A stretch of 64,000 nt of DNA from Roseomonas gilardii subsp. gilardii (GTDB taxonomy: Bacteria > Pseudomonadota > Alphaproteobacteria > Acetobacterales > Acetobacteraceae): NCBI RefSeq assembly GCF_023078375.1, contig NZ_CP095554.1, forward strand, positions 3,216,501 through 3,280,500, written 5' to 3'. A program made the position numbers and the translations under genes. Below are positions 21,430 through 29,373 of this stretch, in pieces. How positions within the stretch are numbered: the first letter of the stretch is position 1; each line of letters starts with the position of its first letter. A model generated the notes under the pieces. The model had not been told where the DNA came from and searched no databases. It worked only from the letters and a program-made list of their open reading frames with translations.

Positions 21430-24400
21430 TCAGGCCGCCCGCACATCCGTCACGCCGGGCAGGACGCGCAGCCGCTGCGTCAGGCGCGGCGAGACGTTCC
21501 AGGTGCCCGGCACGGTGATCTCCACCTCCTGCGTCTCGCCCAGGCAGGGCACGAGCACCACCTTGCTCTTGCCCTTGCCCTCCCCGCGCAGGATCTCGGC
21601 GACGCTGTGCACCGCCTCCTCCTCCGCGACCAGGATGCGGATACCGGTGGCGACCGCCGAGGCCGCCTGATCCAGCGATTCGCAGGAGCTCGCGGTCAGG
21701 CGCAGCGCATCGCCATCCATCCGCACATCGGCGGCGAAGATGACGGCGTGGCCTTCCTTCAGGATCTCTCGCGACTTGGACAGCACCTCGGAGAAGCAGG
21801 TGACCTCCGTGCTGCCGGTGGAATCGGAGATCCGGACCCAGGCCATGCGGCTGCCGGTCTTGGTGGTGCGCTCCTTGGTGCCGACCACCGTGCCGGCGAG
21901 CTTGAGCACCCCCGCCCCGCCCCGCGCCGCCGCCTCCATCCGCGCGATCGGCGTGACGCGCAGCTTGGCCAGGACCTCCTTGTAGCTGTCCAGCGGATGC
22001 GCCGAGAGGTGGAAGCCGATCGCCTCCGCCTCCTCGGCCAGCTTCTCCAGCGTCGGCCAGTCGGGGCGCTCCGGCAGGCGCAGCGGCGCCTCCTCCGCCG
22101 CCACCCCGCCGAAGAGGCCGATCTGGTCGCTCGTCCGCTCCTCGGCCGAGGACTGGGCGCGGCGCAGGATCGCCTCCGCCCCGTACATCACCCGGGCACG
22201 GTTCCTGTCGAGGCATTCGAAGGCCCCGGCACGGGCCAGGTTCTCCAGCTGCATCTTGTTCAGCAGCTTGGGATCAACGCGGGAGGCGAAATCCACCAGC
22301 GAGCGGAAGGGGCCGCCCTGCTTGCGGGAGGCGACGAGGTCGCGCATCGCCCCCAGCCCGACGCGCTTCACCGCGGCCAGGGCGAAGCGGATGGACTTCC
22401 CACCATCCTCCGCGATCTCGACATTGAACTCGGCCTCGGAGCGGTTCACGTCCGGTGGCAGAACCTTGATGCCGAGGCGCGAGGCCTCGCCCATATGCCC
22501 GGCCAGCTTGTCCGTGTTGCCGAGGTCCAGCGACATCGAGGCCGCCAGGAACTCCTCCGGGTAATTCGCCTTCAACCAGGCGGTCTGGTAGGCGACCAGC
22601 GCATAGGCGGCGGCATGCGACTTGTTGAAGCCGTATTCCGCGAACTTCTCCATCAGGTCGAAGATCTCGCCGGCCTTGTTCTCCGGCACGTCGTTCTTCA
22701 CCGCGCCCTCGACGAAGATCTTGCGCTGCGCCTCCATCTCGGCACGGTTCTTCTTGCCCATGGCACGGCGCAGCAGGTCGGCGCCGCCGAGCGAATAGCC
22801 CGCCAGTTCCTGGCTGATCTGCATGACCTGCTCCTGGTAGACCAGGATGCCGTAGGTCTCCTCCACGAGCCGGCGCATCTTCGGATGCGGCGCGTCCCAG
22901 GCCTCGCCATGCTTGCGGGCGCAATAGGCGGGGATATTGGCCATCGGGCCGGGGCGGTAGAGCGAGACGGCGGCGATCAGGTCCTCGAACCGGTCCGGCC
23001 GCATCATCCGCAGGACGTCGCGCATGCCCTGGGATTCGAACTGGAACACCGAGGCGGAATCGCCCCGCGCCAGCATCTCGTAGGTCTTCGCGTCATCCAG
23101 CGGAATGCGCGCGAGATCGACCTCGATGCCCTGCTTTGCCAGCATCTGCACCGCGCGTTGCAGCACGGTAAGCGTCTTGAGGCCCAGGAAGTCGAACTTC
23201 ACCAGTGAGGCGCTCTCCACGTATTTCATGGAGTACTGCGTCACGAGGTCCGGCGCGCGCGGGTCGCGGTAGAGCGGCACGATCTCGATCAGCGGCTTGC
23301 GCCCGATCACCACGCCGGCGGCATGGGTGGAGGCGTTCCTGTACAGCCCCTCCAGTTCCAGCGCCGTCTCCATCAGCCGCGCCACCGTCTCGTCCGCCTT
23401 CTGCAATTCCTGCAGGCGCGGCTCCCCGTCGATGGCCTGACGCAGGCTGACCGGCTTGGCGGGGTTGAAGGGGATCAGCTCCGCGATCTTGTTCACCTGG
23501 CCATAGGGCATGCCCATGACGCGGCCGACATCGCGCACCACCGCCTTGGCCTGAAGGCGGCCGAAGGTGATGATCTGCCCCACCCGGTCCTCGCCATATT
23601 CACGCCGGACGTAGTTGATTACCTCGTCGCGCCGGTCCTGGCAGAAGTCGATGTCGAAATCCGGCATCGAGACGCGTTCCGGGTTCAGGAAGCGCTCGAA
23701 CAGCAGGCCGAACTGCATCGGGTCGAGATCGGTGATGGTCAGCGCCCAGGCCGCCACCGAGCCCGCGCCCGAGCCGCGCCCCGGCCCCACCGGGATGTCC
23801 TGCGCCTTGGCCCACTGGATGAAGTCGGCCACGATCAGGAAGTAGCCCGCGAAGCCCATCTTCTCGATGATGTCGAGCTCGAAGGCCAGGCGCTTGCGAT
23901 AGGGCTCCCGGTCCGTGGTGCCCTGCGCGTCCAGCCGCGCCTCCAGCCCGCGCTTGGCCATGTCGCGCACCGTCTCGGCCTCGGTCATGCCCGGCTGCAC
24001 CTTGGGGCAGATCGGCAGTTCCGGCTTGCGCGTCTCCGCCATCACCGCGCAGCGGCGCGCGATGGCCAGGGTGTTGTCGCAGGCTTCCGGCAGGTCGGCG
24101 AAGAGCTTGCGCATCACCTCGGGCGGCTTGAACCAGTGCTCCGGCGTGCAGCGCGGCCGGTCCGGCTCGGCGAGGGTGCGGCCATGCGCGATGCAGAGCA
24201 GCGCGTCATGCGCCTCGTACATCCGCGCCTCGGCGAAATGCACGTCATTGGCCGCCACCAGCGGCACGCCGACCCGGTCGGCGAGCGCGATCAGACCCGG
24301 CTCCGCCGCCCGGTCGCGCTCCGTGCCGTGCCGCGTCAGCTCCACCGCCAGACGGTCGCCGAAAGCCTCGTGCAGGGCGCGCAGCAGATGCTCCGCCGGG

Positions 24401-24864
24401 TCCCGCCGCCCTTCCAGCAGCAGCCGCCCGAGCGGGCCACGCGTGCCGCCGGTCAGCAGCGTGACGCCCTCGCTGCATTCGCGGAGCTGGTCCAGGTCGA
24501 TGCAGGGAAGGCCGGAGATATCCTCGCCCAGCCAGCCGAGCGAGGAGAGGCGCTGCACGTTCACCAGCCCCTGCCGGTCCATCGCCAGCGCCACCACCGG
24601 ATCGGGCTGGCAACGCATCGGCTCCGGCCTCTCCTCCGTCGCGCGGCGTGAGAGCCAGAGCTGGCAGCCCATGATCGGCTGCACGTTCTCCTTGGTGGCG
24701 TACTGGGCGAATTCCAGCCCGCCGAACATGTTGGCGGTATCCGTCAGGGCCACCGCCGGCATGCCGAGCTTGCGGGCGAGGCCGGGGAGCTTGTCGGCCT
24801 TGATGGCGCCTTCCGCGAGGGAATAGGCGGAATGGACGTGGAGATGGACGAAGCTGCCGGACAT
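21430..24864 (-). CDS. dnaE: DNA polymerase III subunit alpha
   Basis: The replicative polymerase catalytic subunit, 1144 residues. It starts with a PHP domain (FVHLHVHSAYSLAEGAIKAD). Next come PVGPGRGSGAGSV (359-370) and the catalytic PDFDIDF (401-407) with two of the three metal-binding aspartates. The FNKSHAAAYALVAYQTAWLK helix-hairpin region and a C-terminal OB domain (MAWVRISDSTGSTEVTCFSE) follow. The length is normal for DnaE1. In relatives dnaE commonly follows lolD directly; here about 3.8 kb of other genes lie between them. Confidence 0.96.
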   Translation of the reverse strand: MSGSFVHLHVHSAYSLAEGAIKADKLPGLARKLGMPAVALTDTANMFGGLEFAQYATKENVQPIMGCQLWLSRRATEERPEPMRCQPDPVVALAMDRQGLVNVQRLSSLGWLGEDISGLPCIDLDQLRECSEGVTLLTGGTRGPLGRLLLEGRRDPAEHLLRALHEAFGDRLAVELTRHGTERDRAAEPGLIALADRVGVPLVAANDVHFAEARMYEAHDALLCIAHGRTLAEPDRPRCTPEHWFKPPEVMRKLFADLPEACDNTLAIARRCAVMAETRKPELPICPKVQPGMTEAETVRDMAKRGLEARLDAQGTTDREPYRKRLAFELDIIEKMGFAGYFLIVADFIQWAKAQDIPVGPGRGSGAGSVAAWALTITDLDPMQFGLLFERFLNPERVSMPDFDIDFCQDRRDEVINYVRREYGEDRVGQIITFGRLQAKAVVRDVGRVMGMPYGQVNKIAELIPFNPAKPVSLRQAIDGEPRLQELQKADETVARLMETALELEGLYRNASTHAAGVVIGRKPLIEIVPLYRDPRAPDLVTQYSMKYVESASLVKFDFLGLKTLTVLQRAVQMLAKQGIEVDLARIPLDDAKTYEMLARGDSASVFQFESQGMRDVLRMMRPDRFEDLIAAVSLYRPGPMANIPAYCARKHGEAWDAPHPKMRRLVEETYGILVYQEQVMQISQELAGYSLGGADLLRRAMGKKNRAEMEAQRKIFVEGAVKNDVPENKAGEIFDLMEKFAEYGFNKSHAAAYALVAYQTAWLKANYPEEFLAASMSLDLGNTDKLAGHMGEASRLGIKVLPPDVNRSEAEFNVEIAEDGGKSIRFALAAVKRVGLGAMRDLVASRKQGGPFRSLVDFASRVDPKLLNKMQLENLARAGAFECLDRNRARVMYGAEAILRRAQSSAEERTSDQIGLFGGVAAEEAPLRLPERPDWPTLEKLAEEAEAIGFHLSAHPLDSYKEVLAKLRVTPIARMEAAARGGAGVLKLAGTVVGTKERTTKTGSRMAWVRISDSTGSTEVTCFSEVLSKSREILKEGHAVIFAADVRMDGDALRLTASSCESLDQAASAVATGIRILVAEEEAVHSVAEILRGEGKGKSKVVLVPCLGETQEVEITVPGTWNVSPRLTQRLRVLPGVTDVRAA

Positions 24865-25121
24865 GTCCCTCCTGTAGCACAGGCCGGCGATTCGGGCCGG
24901 GGGCGGCAGGGCGATCCAGCCTCCCGCTCCCGGTGTGACGCCGCCCTGGCGCCCCCTTCAGCGTCCCCGCATCGGCGGGCCCGGCATGCCCTGGCCGTCC
25001 GCTCCTCCGGCCGGCCAGTCCGGCGGGGCCGCACCCTGCCGCTGCTCGCGGCCCTGGTCCCGTGGGAAAGGCGCACCATGGCCGTGCTCGCCGCCACCCG
25101 GCATACGGCCGGCATCCCGGT

Positions 25122-26504
25122 TCAGGTCGTTCGCGCCACGCCCCCCGGCACCGGTGCCGCCTCCCAGCGGCCACCCGCATCCGGCGCTCCCACCGGTCCT
25201 CCCATGGAACCCGTTCCGGCCCGTGCCGTTCCCGGGGCGCCATGCGGCGCCGCCAGCCCGCCCGGACCCGGCCGCGCCGCCCCCGGGGAAGCCGTGCCAC
25301 GGGGCCCGGCCGCGCCGCCCCTGCCCGCCCCGGGAGTTGCCCCCATGGCCGGGGCCTGCGGCCCCATCGGCGTCCCGGCCCCCGCGGCGAAGGGCGCGTT
25401 CCGCAACCCGGTCGCGACGATTCCGCGCCCGGGCTCCCGCCGCAGGTCGAGCACGCCGCGCCCGGCGGCACCGCCCGGCGACGGCGGCGCGATCGGCCCC
25501 AGCCCATAGCCGGGGCGGAGATAGCGGCCATCCCAGCCGATATAGGATTCGACCACGAAGCGCCCGACACCGGGGCCGAAGCTGGCCGGCAGATCCGTCA
25601 GCAGCCGGTCCGTCTCCACCGAGCGCGCCAGCATCCGGTTGCCGGAGAGGGGGCCGCTGGCCACCACATAGCTGCCCGGCCGCAGATCGATCCCCGCGCC
25701 CGGGCTGACGGGCAGCGCGCCGATCCGCAGGCTGCCATCCGCGTCGCGCGCCAGCAGCCCATGGACGGTGACATCCCCGGGCGGGCGGCGGTCGATGCGC
25801 GTCGCCGTGATCGCCCCGTCGGGGTCCCGCAGCCCGCTCACGGTGATCCAGTCGCCCGGCATCCAAGAGGTTCCGCCGCGCGTCGCGGCATCCAGCCTCA
25901 CGCGCTGGCCCGCGACGGCCAGGACACGCCCGTCGGAACCCTCCGACACGCTGCTCACCGGGCCGGAGACCTCGTAGCGGACGGCCATGCGCCGCGCCCG
26001 CAGCACCTGGCCCTCCCCGCCCGCCTCCAGCACCACGAGTTGGCCGACCCGCAGCGCATCCGGCCGCGCCCAGCCATCCTCCAGCGCCACCGGCAGGGAG
26101 TCGTCGTAGAGCACCTCCAGCCCGTTCACGCAGATGCTGGCGAAGCCGGTGACGACGCCGACGATCCCGGTACCGCCGATGCCACGATCCTGGCCCCCGG
26201 TCTTGCCGTTATCCGCCTCGGCAACGGCGCCCGTCCCGCCGATCCCGCGATCCTGCGCGGCCGCGACCGCCCCCGTGCCGCCGATGCCACGGTCCTGGCC
26301 GGACGGCGTTCCAGCCACGGCGCCGGTCCCGCCGATGCCGCGCTCGGCCAGGACCGGCCCGTCATCCGGACCGATCCGGCAGAATCCGGGCTCCTGCGCC
26401 CCGGCGGGGGGAGCAGCCACGCCGGCATTCCACCCGGCGGGCGGCGCGTTCACGCAGGCCGCCAGCAGGAACGGAAGAGCGACAGCCCAACGCATGCGTG
26501 TCAC
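25122..26504 (-). CDS. DUF5666 lipoprotein with RGIGGTG repeats
   Basis: A 460-residue predicted lipoprotein: the GTG at 26504 is followed by a signal peptide with lipobox LAAC (Cys17). Four RGIGGTG repeats (residues 55-61, 72-78, 86-92, 107-113) come next, then GFASICVNGLEV and several DUF5666 beta modules (about 120-340; for example VLAVAGQRVRLDA, VTVHGLLARDADGSL). The C-terminal part is a collagen-like Gly/Ala/Pro chain. It overlaps the DUF6502 stop by four bases (GTGA), so the two proteins are probably made together. The frame may continue past 25122: one extra G in the G6 run at 25141-25146 (minus-strand G's, C's on plus) opens a GC3-rich tail to 24958 ending PGPPMRGR. The function of DUF5666 proteins is unknown. 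Confidence 0.75.
   Translation of the reverse strand: MTRMRWAVALPFLLAACVNAPPAGWNAGVAAPPAGAQEPGFCRIGPDDGPVLAERGIGGTGAVAGTPSGQDRGIGGTGAVAAAQDRGIGGTGAVAEADNGKTGGQDRGIGGTGIVGVVTGFASICVNGLEVLYDDSLPVALEDGWARPDALRVGQLVVLEAGGEGQVLRARRMAVRYEVSGPVSSVSEGSDGRVLAVAGQRVRLDAATRGGTSWMPGDWITVSGLRDPDGAITATRIDRRPPGDVTVHGLLARDADGSLRIGALPVSPGAGIDLRPGSYVVASGPLSGNRMLARSVETDRLLTDLPASFGPGVGRFVVESYIGWDGRYLRPGYGLGPIAPPSPGGAAGRGVLDLRREPGRGIVATGLRNAPFAAGAGTPMGPQAPAMGATPGAGRGGAAGPRGTASPGAARPGPGGLAAPHGAPGTARAGTGSMGGPVGAPDAGGRWEAAPVPGGVARTT
26166..26342 (-). repeat. Region encoding four RGIGGTG repeats
   Basis: Within the DUF5666 gene, four near-identical heptapeptides, each usually preceded by QD and followed by AVA, are spaced 17, 14 and 21 residues apart. 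The DNA repeats are imperfect, with synonymous differences, which suggests selection on the peptide rather than recent slippage. Confidence 0.8.
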
Positions 26505-27355
26505 CCTTCCGCGCGGTTCCCGTCATCCTCGGCGTAGAGATATACGCCGAGATTGAACCGGCGTGTCAGGGTCCCGGCCGCGGCCTCGCCCTTTTCCTCC
26601 AGCAGGGCCAGGGCGAGGCGGTTGATCTCGATCAGCATCCGCTGCGCCGACTCGCGCCCGGCGGCCTCCAGCGCCGTCACGACCTCCGGGCTCAGCCCGT
26701 CATAATGCACGCTGCGATCGAGGAAGGGCGCCGATCCGGAGGCGGCGACATTCGCCGTGGCTGCCGCGATGTGGTCATGCAGGTTGCGGGCGAAGAAGAA
26801 GAGCTGCTCTTCCTTGCCCGGCGCCGGCAGGAAGGCCGCGGCCAGCAGGTGAACGCGGTCCTCGGCGTCCAGCCGCACGATCCCCTGGGCGATCCAGTCA
26901 TCCAGCACCGCCCTCGGCCGGACATCGGTGGTGACCGAGGCAACCAGCCCCTCGAAGGACGGCACGCCCTCCGGTGCGCTGCGCGGCAGGGGCAGCGGCC
27001 GCCCGTCCGGGCCGGTATGGGAGGGCTGGCCCAGCCAGCGCGCGATGATCCCGGTGGCCAACGTCACCACCGCCGGCACCTCCGCGAGATCGGCGCCCTC
27101 CTCCCGCAGCCGGCGGATCTCCTTCCTATGCACGCCGGTCAGCAGGCTGATCCGGCTGTCCGTGCGGCTCTTCGGGTCCGGCAGCAGGTCCGTGGCCGCC
27201 ACCTCCACATAGAGGCCGCGCAGCAGGTCGGCGAAGACAGGGAAGGTCACGCCGCTGCGGATCAGCAGCCGCACGAGCGGGCGCAGGAGGCGGCGCAGCG
27301 GCCTGGTCAGACTGTCCGGCAGAGGCAGGTCGGCGCGGTCGGGAACAACTGGCAT
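26501..27355 (-). CDS. DUF6502 family protein
   Basis: About 284 residues. It begins with LTRPLRRLLRPLVRLLIRSGVTFPVFADLLRGLYVEVA split across two helices, followed by SRISLLTGVHRKEIRRLREE, a segment that looks like a helix-turn-helix typical of DUF6502. The ATG at 27355 gives the usual family N-terminus; a GTG at 27388 is an alternative. The protein has no signal peptide or membrane segment and is probably a cytoplasmic DNA-binding protein. It is coupled to the downstream DUF5666 gene by GTGA overlap. Two palindromes sit in its promoter region, so autoregulation is plausible. The molecular function of the family is not established. Confidence 0.75.
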   Translation of the reverse strand: MPVVPDRADLPLPDSLTRPLRRLLRPLVRLLIRSGVTFPVFADLLRGLYVEVAATDLLPDPKSRTDSRISLLTGVHRKEIRRLREEGADLAEVPAVVTLATGIIARWLGQPSHTGPDGRPLPLPRSAPEGVPSFEGLVASVTTDVRPRAVLDDWIAQGIVRLDAEDRVHLLAAAFLPAPGKEEQLFFFARNLHDHIAAATANVAASGSAPFLDRSVHYDGLSPEVVTALEAAGRESAQRMLIEINRLALALLEEKGEAAAGTLTRRFNLGVYLYAEDDGNRAEG

Positions 27356-27403
27356 CCGGAGGGATGGATCCTTGGGCTGCCTCTTCACTAGCACGGATCT
27401 TTC

Positions 27404-27420
27404 GTGGGAAAAATGCCCAC
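27404..27420. promoter_or_regulatory. Palindromic operator-like site 1 (17 bp)
   Basis: GTGGGAAAAATGCCCAC has inverted GTGGG/CCCAC ends around an AT core. It matches the reverse complement of site 2 at 15 of 17 positions. It lies 49 bases upstream of the DUF6502 ATG (16 from the alternative GTG), in the divergent region shared with the kinase gene. Confidence 0.55.
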
Positions 27421-27441
27421 AAAGCCCGCTCCGGCATTGAC

Positions 27442-27458
27442 GTGGGCAAATTTCCCAC
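27442..27458. promoter_or_regulatory. Palindromic operator-like site 2 (17 bp)
   Basis: GTGGGCAAATTTCCCAC is a near-perfect palindrome, 40 bases upstream of the kinase TTG start. Its centre is 38 bp from the centre of site 1. Two such sites in one divergent promoter region suggest cooperative binding of a dimeric regulator. Confidence 0.6.
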
Positions 27459-27497
27459 AAATACTTCGCCCATCACACCACTCCCAGGACCGGTCCC

Positions 27498-28220
27498 TTG
27501 TCTTTCGATGTCTCCGATCCGTCCTTCGTCCCCGCCCTGCCTCCTTCGCTGGCCCCTTCACTGGCCCCTTCACTGGCCCCTTCACTGGCCAGGATGATGG
27601 GCCGCCCCTGCCAGACCACCGGAGACGACGCGCTCCGGCAGCTTCGCCATCATTCCAAGAACGCCCTGCAAAGGATCCTGGCCCAGCTTTGGCATTCGGA
27701 GGATCTCCAGGCGACACCGGAAGGGCGGCGCCTAGTGCGGGACCTGGAAAACCGGATCAGCCTTTCCGCCGGGATCTCCGACGATCTCTTCGGCTTCACC
27801 CGGGAGCCCCGGCCGCTGGACGAGCGCCTCCGCTCCCTGTGCGAGAAGGTGGTCGGGCTGATGGCCGATCCGGACCAGCGCATCACCCTGACGCTGCGGA
27901 CCGACGACACCTGCCCGGACCACCTGGAGAACCTCGTGCTGCGGGTCGCGCATGAGATGGTGGGCAATGCCGTGAAGCACGGCCTTCACGTCCGCCTGTC
28001 CGGGCAGATCGCCGTGGAGTTCGGGTGGCAGGGAAAGGGCTGGCAGCTCCGCGTCGCCGATGACGGCTGGGGCCCTTCCCCTGGCGCCGCGGATGGCGAC
28101 GGCATGCAGCTGATGCGCAGCCTGGCCGCGCCCTATGGTGGCCAGATCATGATGAACCGGCAGGACAACATGACCGTCGTCACGCTCGACCTCCCCGCCA
28201 CCGACTCCGAAAGCCACTGA
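27498..28220 (+). CDS. Sensorless HisKA_2/HWE-like histidine kinase
   Basis: A 240-residue soluble kinase. The phosphoacceptor box is RQLRHHSKNALQRI (His51/His52), resembling HisKA_2/HWE kinases. The ATPase part has HEMVGNAVKHG (N-box, Asn157) and VADDGWGP (188-193), and ends GMQLMRSLAAPYGGQI. No sensory domain, membrane segment or receiver domain is present, and no response regulator gene is nearby. The TTG at 27498 has AGGA eight bases upstream; ATGs at 27594/27597 are alternatives that would skip a PSLA-repeat N-terminus. It is transcribed divergently from DUF6502/DUF5666 and may share regulation through the two palindromes. Confidence 0.75.
   Translation: MSFDVSDPSFVPALPPSLAPSLAPSLAPSLARMMGRPCQTTGDDALRQLRHHSKNALQRILAQLWHSEDLQATPEGRRLVRDLENRISLSAGISDDLFGFTREPRPLDERLRSLCEKVVGLMADPDQRITLTLRTDDTCPDHLENLVLRVAHEMVGNAVKHGLHVRLSGQIAVEFGWQGKGWQLRVADDGWGPSPGAADGDGMQLMRSLAAPYGGQIMMNRQDNMTVVTLDLPATDSESH
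27551..27586 (+). repeat. Three exact 12-bp tandem repeats
   Basis: GGCCCCTTCACT occurs three times in a row (27551, 27563, 27575), followed by a partial copy. In the kinase frame it encodes repeated Leu-Ala-Pro-Ser. Because 12 is a multiple of three, copy-number change would lengthen or shorten the N-terminus without breaking the frame. Confidence 0.85.
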
Positions 28221-28320
28221 CGCGGTCCGGCCACGGCCCGCCTCGCACGAAAGGAAGCACCCTCTGCTCCCTTCCCTGTTCCTCAGCCCCCTGCCAGCAG
28301 CCGGCCCGCTGTTCCTGAGC

Positions 28321-28680
28321 GTGCCGCTGGCCCTGGCGGTTCCGCTGCTGCACCGGGAGCATGCCGCCCGGCATGTGGGAACCTCAGCCGGCGGCCCCGG
28401 AATGCCAGAGACTGGAATGGTGACCGGATTGCTCACCGGATTGGCCAGACGGAGGCCCGTTTCCGGAGGGCTGTCCTTCCGGCAGGAGCACCCCCTCTTG
28501 GGCTGGGGCGATGCCGGTGCCCCGTTCCGGCAGCCCCGCCCCGTCCCTCTCGCCTCGGGGGAACCGCTGCCCCTGGCCCCCCGGCACTGGCAGGCCCGGG
28601 ATGTCCTGGCTGTCCTCCTGATCGCCCTGGCCGGTATCGCCATCGCCTACGGCTTCGGCCAGTTGGATGAGTTGCGGTAA
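28321..28680 (+). CDS. Small hypothetical membrane protein
   Basis: About 119 residues from a GTG at 28321. The frame is open further upstream and a good AAAGGAAG ribosome binding site (28250-28257) precedes a CTG at 28264, so the true start may be there, adding a hydrophobic leader. A clear transmembrane helix near the C-terminus is [20 protein letters not shown], ending QLDELR. The middle is Pro/Gly-rich without a known domain. It follows the kinase by about 100 bases on the same strand and ends 3 bases before the convergent lolD stop. No function can be assigned. Confidence 0.5.
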
Positions 28681-28683
28681 CCC

Positions 28684-29365
<682 letters not shown>

Positions 29366-29373
<8 letters not shown>

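Follow-up and report, generated by a model that had tools for sequence, protein, structure and literature searches.

We analysed a 64-kb window (the whole stretch of DNA considered here) from Roseomonas gilardii subsp. gilardii, in which dnaE and lolD are separated by an island of accessory genes. The subject of this study is the DUF6502 gene of that island, whose product very probably represses transcription by binding DNA at a target site that can be read from the sequence. It is followed by a DUF5666 gene; a gene for a sensorless histidine-kinase-like protein diverges from this DUF6502-DUF5666 operon, and a small membrane open reading frame (ORF) comes before lolD. Two exact GTGGG-N7-CCCAC palindromes, at a distance of 38 bp, lie between the divergent units. 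An earlier description of the island made from the letters alone (herein the sequence-only reading) had listed these genes; their coordinates and content were confirmed and are as follows.

21430-24864, minus strand: dnaE, the left neighbour of the island
25122-26504, minus strand: DUF5666 gene, putative lipoprotein (PF18914, E = 1.1e-13)
26501-27355 from an ATG start, or to 27391 from a GTG start, minus strand: DUF6502 gene, predicted DNA-binding repressor (PF20112, E = 1.3e-29)
27404-27420: predicted operator 1, DUF6502-proximal, GTGGGAAAAATGCCCAC
27442-27458: predicted operator 2, distal, GTGGGCAAATTTCCCAC, lying between -35 and -10 of the predicted kinase promoter
27437-27465, plus strand: predicted sigma70-type kinase promoter, TTGACG-17-AATACT
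27498-28220, plus strand: sensorless histidine-kinase-like gene of the HisKA_2/HWE type, TTG start
28321-28680, plus strand: small membrane ORF, outside the conserved cassette
28684-29373, minus strand: lolD (best model TIGR02211 at 231.5 bits, below its 307.75 cut-off)

The DUF6502 protein and its predicted palindromic operator

The DUF6502 protein matches the PF20112 profile with 103.3 bits (cut-off 27) over positions 6 through 265 of 268. In the Pfam scan this is the sole family at E ≤ 1; no IclR, MarR or DtxR family profile and no Response_reg match, that is, no receiver domain, was found. The AlphaFold2 model (predicted local distance difference test score 84.1; predicted template modelling score 0.65) has helices at residues 50 through 69, 78 through 85 and 89 through 98, a winged-helix-like part at 103 through 189, and C-terminal helices at 194 through 216 and 235 through 267. 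Compared with winged-helix regulators of the IclR, MarR and DtxR types, to which no Pfam or PDB sequence relation was found, DUF6502 adds a preceding helix-turn-helix (HTH; 49 through 99) carrying residues that covary with the operator. RuvB and other non-regulators score equally high, so that the likeness to winged-helix proteins amounts to no more than a similarity of fold. For HetR (Fischerella, Anabaena), at a root-mean-square deviation of 10.9 over 212 residues and 10% identity, no relationship is claimed.

Within the window the exact form GTGGGN7CCCAC occurs only at the two island positions, with 0.13 occurrences expected and 1 of 100 shuffles reaching two; when one mismatch is allowed, the number of palindromes rises to six, which is ordinary (4.33 expected). 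Outside the window, an exact palindrome lies within 450 bp upstream of DUF6502 at 108 of 144 loci, and the reversed control at 0 of 144. These loci comprise a family sample (23 of 30 with the palindrome), a class sample (8 of 12), a named sample made up of the best 80 of 552 relatives (72 of 80) and a phylum sample (5 of 22). The named loci span Acetobacteraceae, Methylobacterium, Bradyrhizobium, Bosea, Microvirga and others, and several repeat genes of the family sample (e.g., L106 and L022); a set of 97 loci dereplicated at 90% identity corrects for such repetition. Two loci were left out of the 144 (L031, the same gene as L001, and L044, a second piece of the L043 gene), and upstream stretches cut short by a contig end (L105) were counted as lacking the site. 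The paired palindromes occupy the shared control region of the divergent units, where the sequence-only reading had placed them, and are conserved where DUF6502 is.

Read in both orientations, the 147 distinct sites give the consensus AYGTGGGAAAWTTTCCCACRT. Successive sites stand 25 to 30, 35 to 39, 42, 49, 52 to 54, 59 to 60, 66 or 81 to 82 bp apart; for 47 deduplicated neighbour-site spacings the best period is 10.7 bp (R = 0.62), and the Rayleigh p is ∼2e-8 at 10.5 bp for what are related sequences.

Presence of the site tracks the recognition helix. Where that helix carries the motif xHR[KR], the site is found at 108 of 128 loci, and where it carries another motif, at 0 of 16; after dereplication the figures are 64 of 83 versus 0 of 14 (p = 2.9e-8). 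Three changed-motif groups of Acetobacteraceae type, LQRR (L014/L123), IYRK (L113/L122) and INRR (L028/L030), all lack the site. At L036 and L197 a variant operator, ATGGG-N7-CCCAT, lies upstream of a DUF6502 gene with an LHRK helix, which suggests shifted specificity. A DUF6502 with an LTRR helix (L200) has a different upstream palindrome, TAAATGTGCGTTTTGCACATTTA.

The bare pattern is not enriched in the source genome, where it occurs at 10 places versus 11 for the reversed control. Four of the 10 have a TTCGAA-type core (three of these within tRNA-Ser genes); of the other six, two are GC-rich at the core (L045, L054) and four AT-cored. The AT-cored form GTGGGNNWWWNNCCCAC is found at four places versus 0 in the control, and the wider form TGGGNNWWWNNCCCA at six versus 0: the island promoter twice, the DUF192 promoter, the DUF374 promoter, L207 (site inside a gene) and L282 (site inside a called ORF, with a GC-flanked core). 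Among the 200 family genomes, AT-cored sites are present in 26 of the 34 that carry DUF6502 versus 19 of the 166 that do not (reversed control, 8 of 34 and 31 of 166); for the strict form GTGGGANWWWNTCCCAC the corresponding counts are 18 of 34 and 2 of 166.

Operator placement in predicted promoters and candidate targets

TTGACG-17-AATACT is the only sigma70-like promoter found in 24860-28760 (shuffles mean 0.1), and its 17-bp spacer is operator 2; an AGGA is located 8 nt ahead of the kinase TTG start. An operator that fills a 17-bp spacer is classically positioned for repression. In relatives, TTGA[CT] adjoins the operator and points away from DUF6502 at 43 of 148 sites, against 1 where it points toward it; a promoter with 8 or more of 12 matches is present at 29 of 148 sites versus 10 of 2,960 random places. 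Counting distinct distal sites, 41 of 97 have TTGA[CT], as do 23 of 27 distinct kinase loci at their distal site; none was found at the distal site of the Bradyrhizobium loci. The TTGAC-operator layout is also seen at L008, L066, L088 and L239 among the 24 target stretches listed (22 loci).

Source-genome sites lie at the divergon, at the gene for a secreted DUF192 protein (L047) and at that for a DUF374 acyltransferase (L052). The DUF192 site is also present in G102 and G159, and the DUF374 site in G102 and Roseomonas populi (L237); on the far side of the latter site (G000:C1:3960295) are genes that, by eye, we take to resemble CbtB/CbtA cobalt transport. Elsewhere, the gene that diverges at the DUF6502 promoter codes for a haem peroxidase at L013, an RTX protein at L008, a fasciclin protein at L082 and a response regulator at L068 and L080; in Bradyrhizobium it codes for a glycosyltransferase/ABC-2 fusion (scanned at L142). 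Of the sites at separate places, one precedes a haem peroxidase gene (L063), one a second-place DUF5666 gene (L092) and one, within a weak ORF call, a peroxiredoxin gene (L238); an ABC-2 type permease gene (L239) is preceded by a double site.

The recurring cassette, its partners and its address

DUF6502 is present in 34 of the 200 genomes sampled for the family, in 13 of 289 for the class and in 21 of 398 for the phylum, the source genome being counted each time. Its usual partner is DUF5666, whose reading frame in the window starts with GTG and overlaps the DUF6502 stop by 4 bp. The partner protein there matches PF18914 at 51.7 bits (cut-off 27; domain at residues 181 through 238) and has a candidate LLAAC lipobox and RGIGGTG repeats, both read by eye; a model of residues 1 through 347 is ordered at ∼110 through 330, with about three barrels like the oligonucleotide/oligosaccharide-binding (OB) fold. 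A downstream gene call was obtained at 45 of the 64 family, class and phylum sample loci and entered the Pfam scan; 43 of the 45 proteins carry DUF5666, and the two calls without it include L012, where the called gene is dnaE (PHP match). A possible DUF5666 start lies at -4 or -1 of the DUF6502 stop at 91 of the 116 loci, out of 144, where a GIGGT-bearing DUF5666 frame was found. By profile search, which misses some copies beside DUF6502 that tblastn sees (e.g., L005), DUF5666 is present in 32 of the 200 family genomes: 25 of the 34 with DUF6502 versus 7 of the 166 without (p = 3e-18). In G159 (L012, G159:C2) the DUF5666 match begins at residue 224, with none found for residues 1 through 223; DUF6502, kinase and operators are retained there.

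At L092 (G199:C20) a DUF5666 gene lies on a contig other than that of DUF6502, with an operator ∼140 bp upstream, and at the congener loci L024 and L174 no GIGGT protein follows DUF6502. L092 suggests a split operon that retained its operator.

HWE/HisKA_2 kinases are defined by a phospho-acceptor His with a following Asn, an N-box and glycine boxes. The island protein shares the RH-x3-N motif, N-box and glycine boxes with these kinases and with PhyK, and the His, the N-box Glu/Asn and the glycine-box residues are invariant in 34 of 34 aligned homologues. It differs from both in having no sensor domain, and PhyK, although its best NCBIfam model, scores 40.5 bits, below the equivalog cut-off of 750. 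No Pfam HisKA_2 or HWE_HK match was found; at E ≤ 1 only HATPase_c (24.2 versus a 26.4-bit cut-off) and HATPase_c_2 appear, both below cut-off. Because neither the HisKA_2 nor the HWE_HK profile matches, we term the protein kinase-like rather than a family member.

This kinase subfamily (E ≤ 1e-15) occurs in 18 of the 200 family genomes; 15 of these carry DUF6502 (p = 8e-11), and by position the kinase is adjacent and divergent to DUF6502 in all 15. Across the 144 DUF6502 loci there are kinase matches at 36, of which 33 are divergent and adjacent, two downstream (L113, L122) and one co-directional (L116). The three genes are therefore not scattered independently in other genomes; DUF5666 follows DUF6502 and the kinase stands beside it often enough to form a recurring cassette. 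The kinase holds as a partner only in a subset of Acetobacteraceae; the divergent slot of other lineages is taken by secreted proteins, a response regulator or a glycosyltransferase/ABC-2 fusion.

At G112:C34:111946-115965 (L021, L133) and G024:C23:220340-224245, two opposed DUF6502 genes lie ∼2.4 kb apart and flank the kinase; G112 has two AT-cored sites next to the first DUF6502 copy and one ∼1.3 kb before the second.

The sequence-only reading took dnaE and lolD to be close neighbours as a rule, which the lolD neighbourhoods bear out: 37 of 40 genomes gave a lolD match, and in the 30 lolD loci read dnaE lies inside the 1.5-kb lolD flank at 20 and within 450 bp at 14. Three of the 10 lolD loci lacking a nearby dnaE belong to the source genome, G102 and G159, the only genomes among the loci read in which the cassette has this address. 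In the congener G003, the gap between dnaE and lolD is 95 bp and the pair is intact, and the DUF6502-kinase cassette lies on a different contig (C59). Because the two are separate there, the conserved thing is the cassette and not the address, which cannot serve as its defining feature. The small membrane ORF likewise drops out of the unit: it matches no Pfam family, its only relative among the loci searched is in L009/G102 (52% over 107 aa), and none was found in the G159 locus.

A proposed repressor and the alternatives to it

We consider it likely, with a probability of roughly 0.78, that DUF6502 is an autoregulated repressor that acts at the palindrome and controls the kinase, DUF5666 and a small surface-related set. 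Conservation of the cassette and of the operator, covariation of operator and helix, and the position of the operator within predicted promoters were all computed here. DNA binding, dimerisation, repression, the signal and an envelope role we infer for the system. DUF6502 would bind AYGTGGGAAAWTTTCCCACRT, probably as a dimer, with its N-terminal HTH contacting the palindrome through a recognition helix that begins His-Arg-Lys and lies beside the winged helix. In the window it would occupy the two operators between the divergent promoters; at the distal one, which fills the kinase promoter spacer, it would block RNA polymerase, and the pair would also autoregulate DUF6502-DUF5666. Two further AT-cored promoters of the source genome, those of the secreted DUF192 protein and the DUF374 acyltransferase, may be under its control as well. 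Since the site precedes several secreted, surface, envelope and signalling genes in other Alphaproteobacteria, the most likely role of the cassette is that of a switch keeping a small surface-remodelling set off until a signal arrives, the signal perhaps being bound by the conserved C-terminal RNLxDH region and releasing the repressor. The envelope/secreted theme is no more than a trend. Some of the extra sites are unconvincing: at L087, L091, L093, L096, L099, L207, L217 and L221 the site lies inside a called gene, and several others, next to genes of Lichenibacterium, Methylobacterium and Beijerinckia, have no theme in common.

The sequence-only reading suggested that the lipoprotein, the DNA-binder and the kinase could form one envelope-sensing circuit, which, taken as a phosphorelay, we regard as unlikely. 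The adjacency of kinase and DUF6502 in 15 of 18 kinase-bearing family genomes is consistent with it, as is the response regulator in the divergent slot at L068 and L080, and one PhyK-type protein is known to hand phosphate on (PMC5964349). However, DUF6502 lacks a receiver domain, the Pfam scan found neither a sensor domain nor a response regulator in the island, and most DUF6502 loci are without a kinase. A repressor with a defined operator is the better-supported reading. It is less likely still that DUF6502 activates the divergent gene in the way of MerR-type regulators; these also bind between -35 and -10, but the predicted kinase promoter has the normal spacer of 17 bp, so no untwisting is needed.

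A site alone names no protein, and another regulator might bind the palindrome with DUF6502 merely one of its targets. The two genomes with strict sites and no DUF6502 (G148 and G082) are what such a regulator would leave, and in G148 one of two consensus sites (G148:C459:6554-6570, L086) precedes a response regulator, as in DUF6502-bearing relatives. Site presence, however, tracks both DUF6502 and its helix motif, and G082 is 73% complete and G148 a congener of the DUF6502-bearing G084, so the two may reflect missed genes or recent losses; we judge this alternative quite improbable. That unrelated genes were inserted by chance between dnaE and lolD is barely credible: the address is confined to three genomes among the loci read, but genes in this order, with the operators, are met again at other positions in other genomes.

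Beyond the autoregulated repressor, we raise only tentatively that DUF6502 represents a new transcription-factor superfamily combining an HTH, a winged helix and a ligand-binding RNLxDH helix pair. Its partner OB-barrel lipoprotein might then feed back envelope state, the divergent kinase or response regulator might couple it to phosphorelays, and specificity might re-evolve at HRK to give lineage-specific operators.

Autoregulated repressors placed between divergent genes are a familiar arrangement. The literature searched, which left most subscription journals and preprints outside its scope, contained no mention of DUF6502 and none of five exact operator strings; DUF5666 is named in four papers, in two of them as a single table entry that gives no function. 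As far as these searches go, the function of DUF6502, its operator, the link between helix and operator, and the partner are undescribed. DUF6502 would pass from a Pfam family lacking a function to a testable transcription factor with an operator defined at the level of bases, a recognition helix and a small regulon, both predicted, and a lipoprotein as its usual partner. Any genome with an HRK-type DUF6502 can be searched for the site, and the roles of DUF5666 and the sensorless kinase therefore become directly testable.
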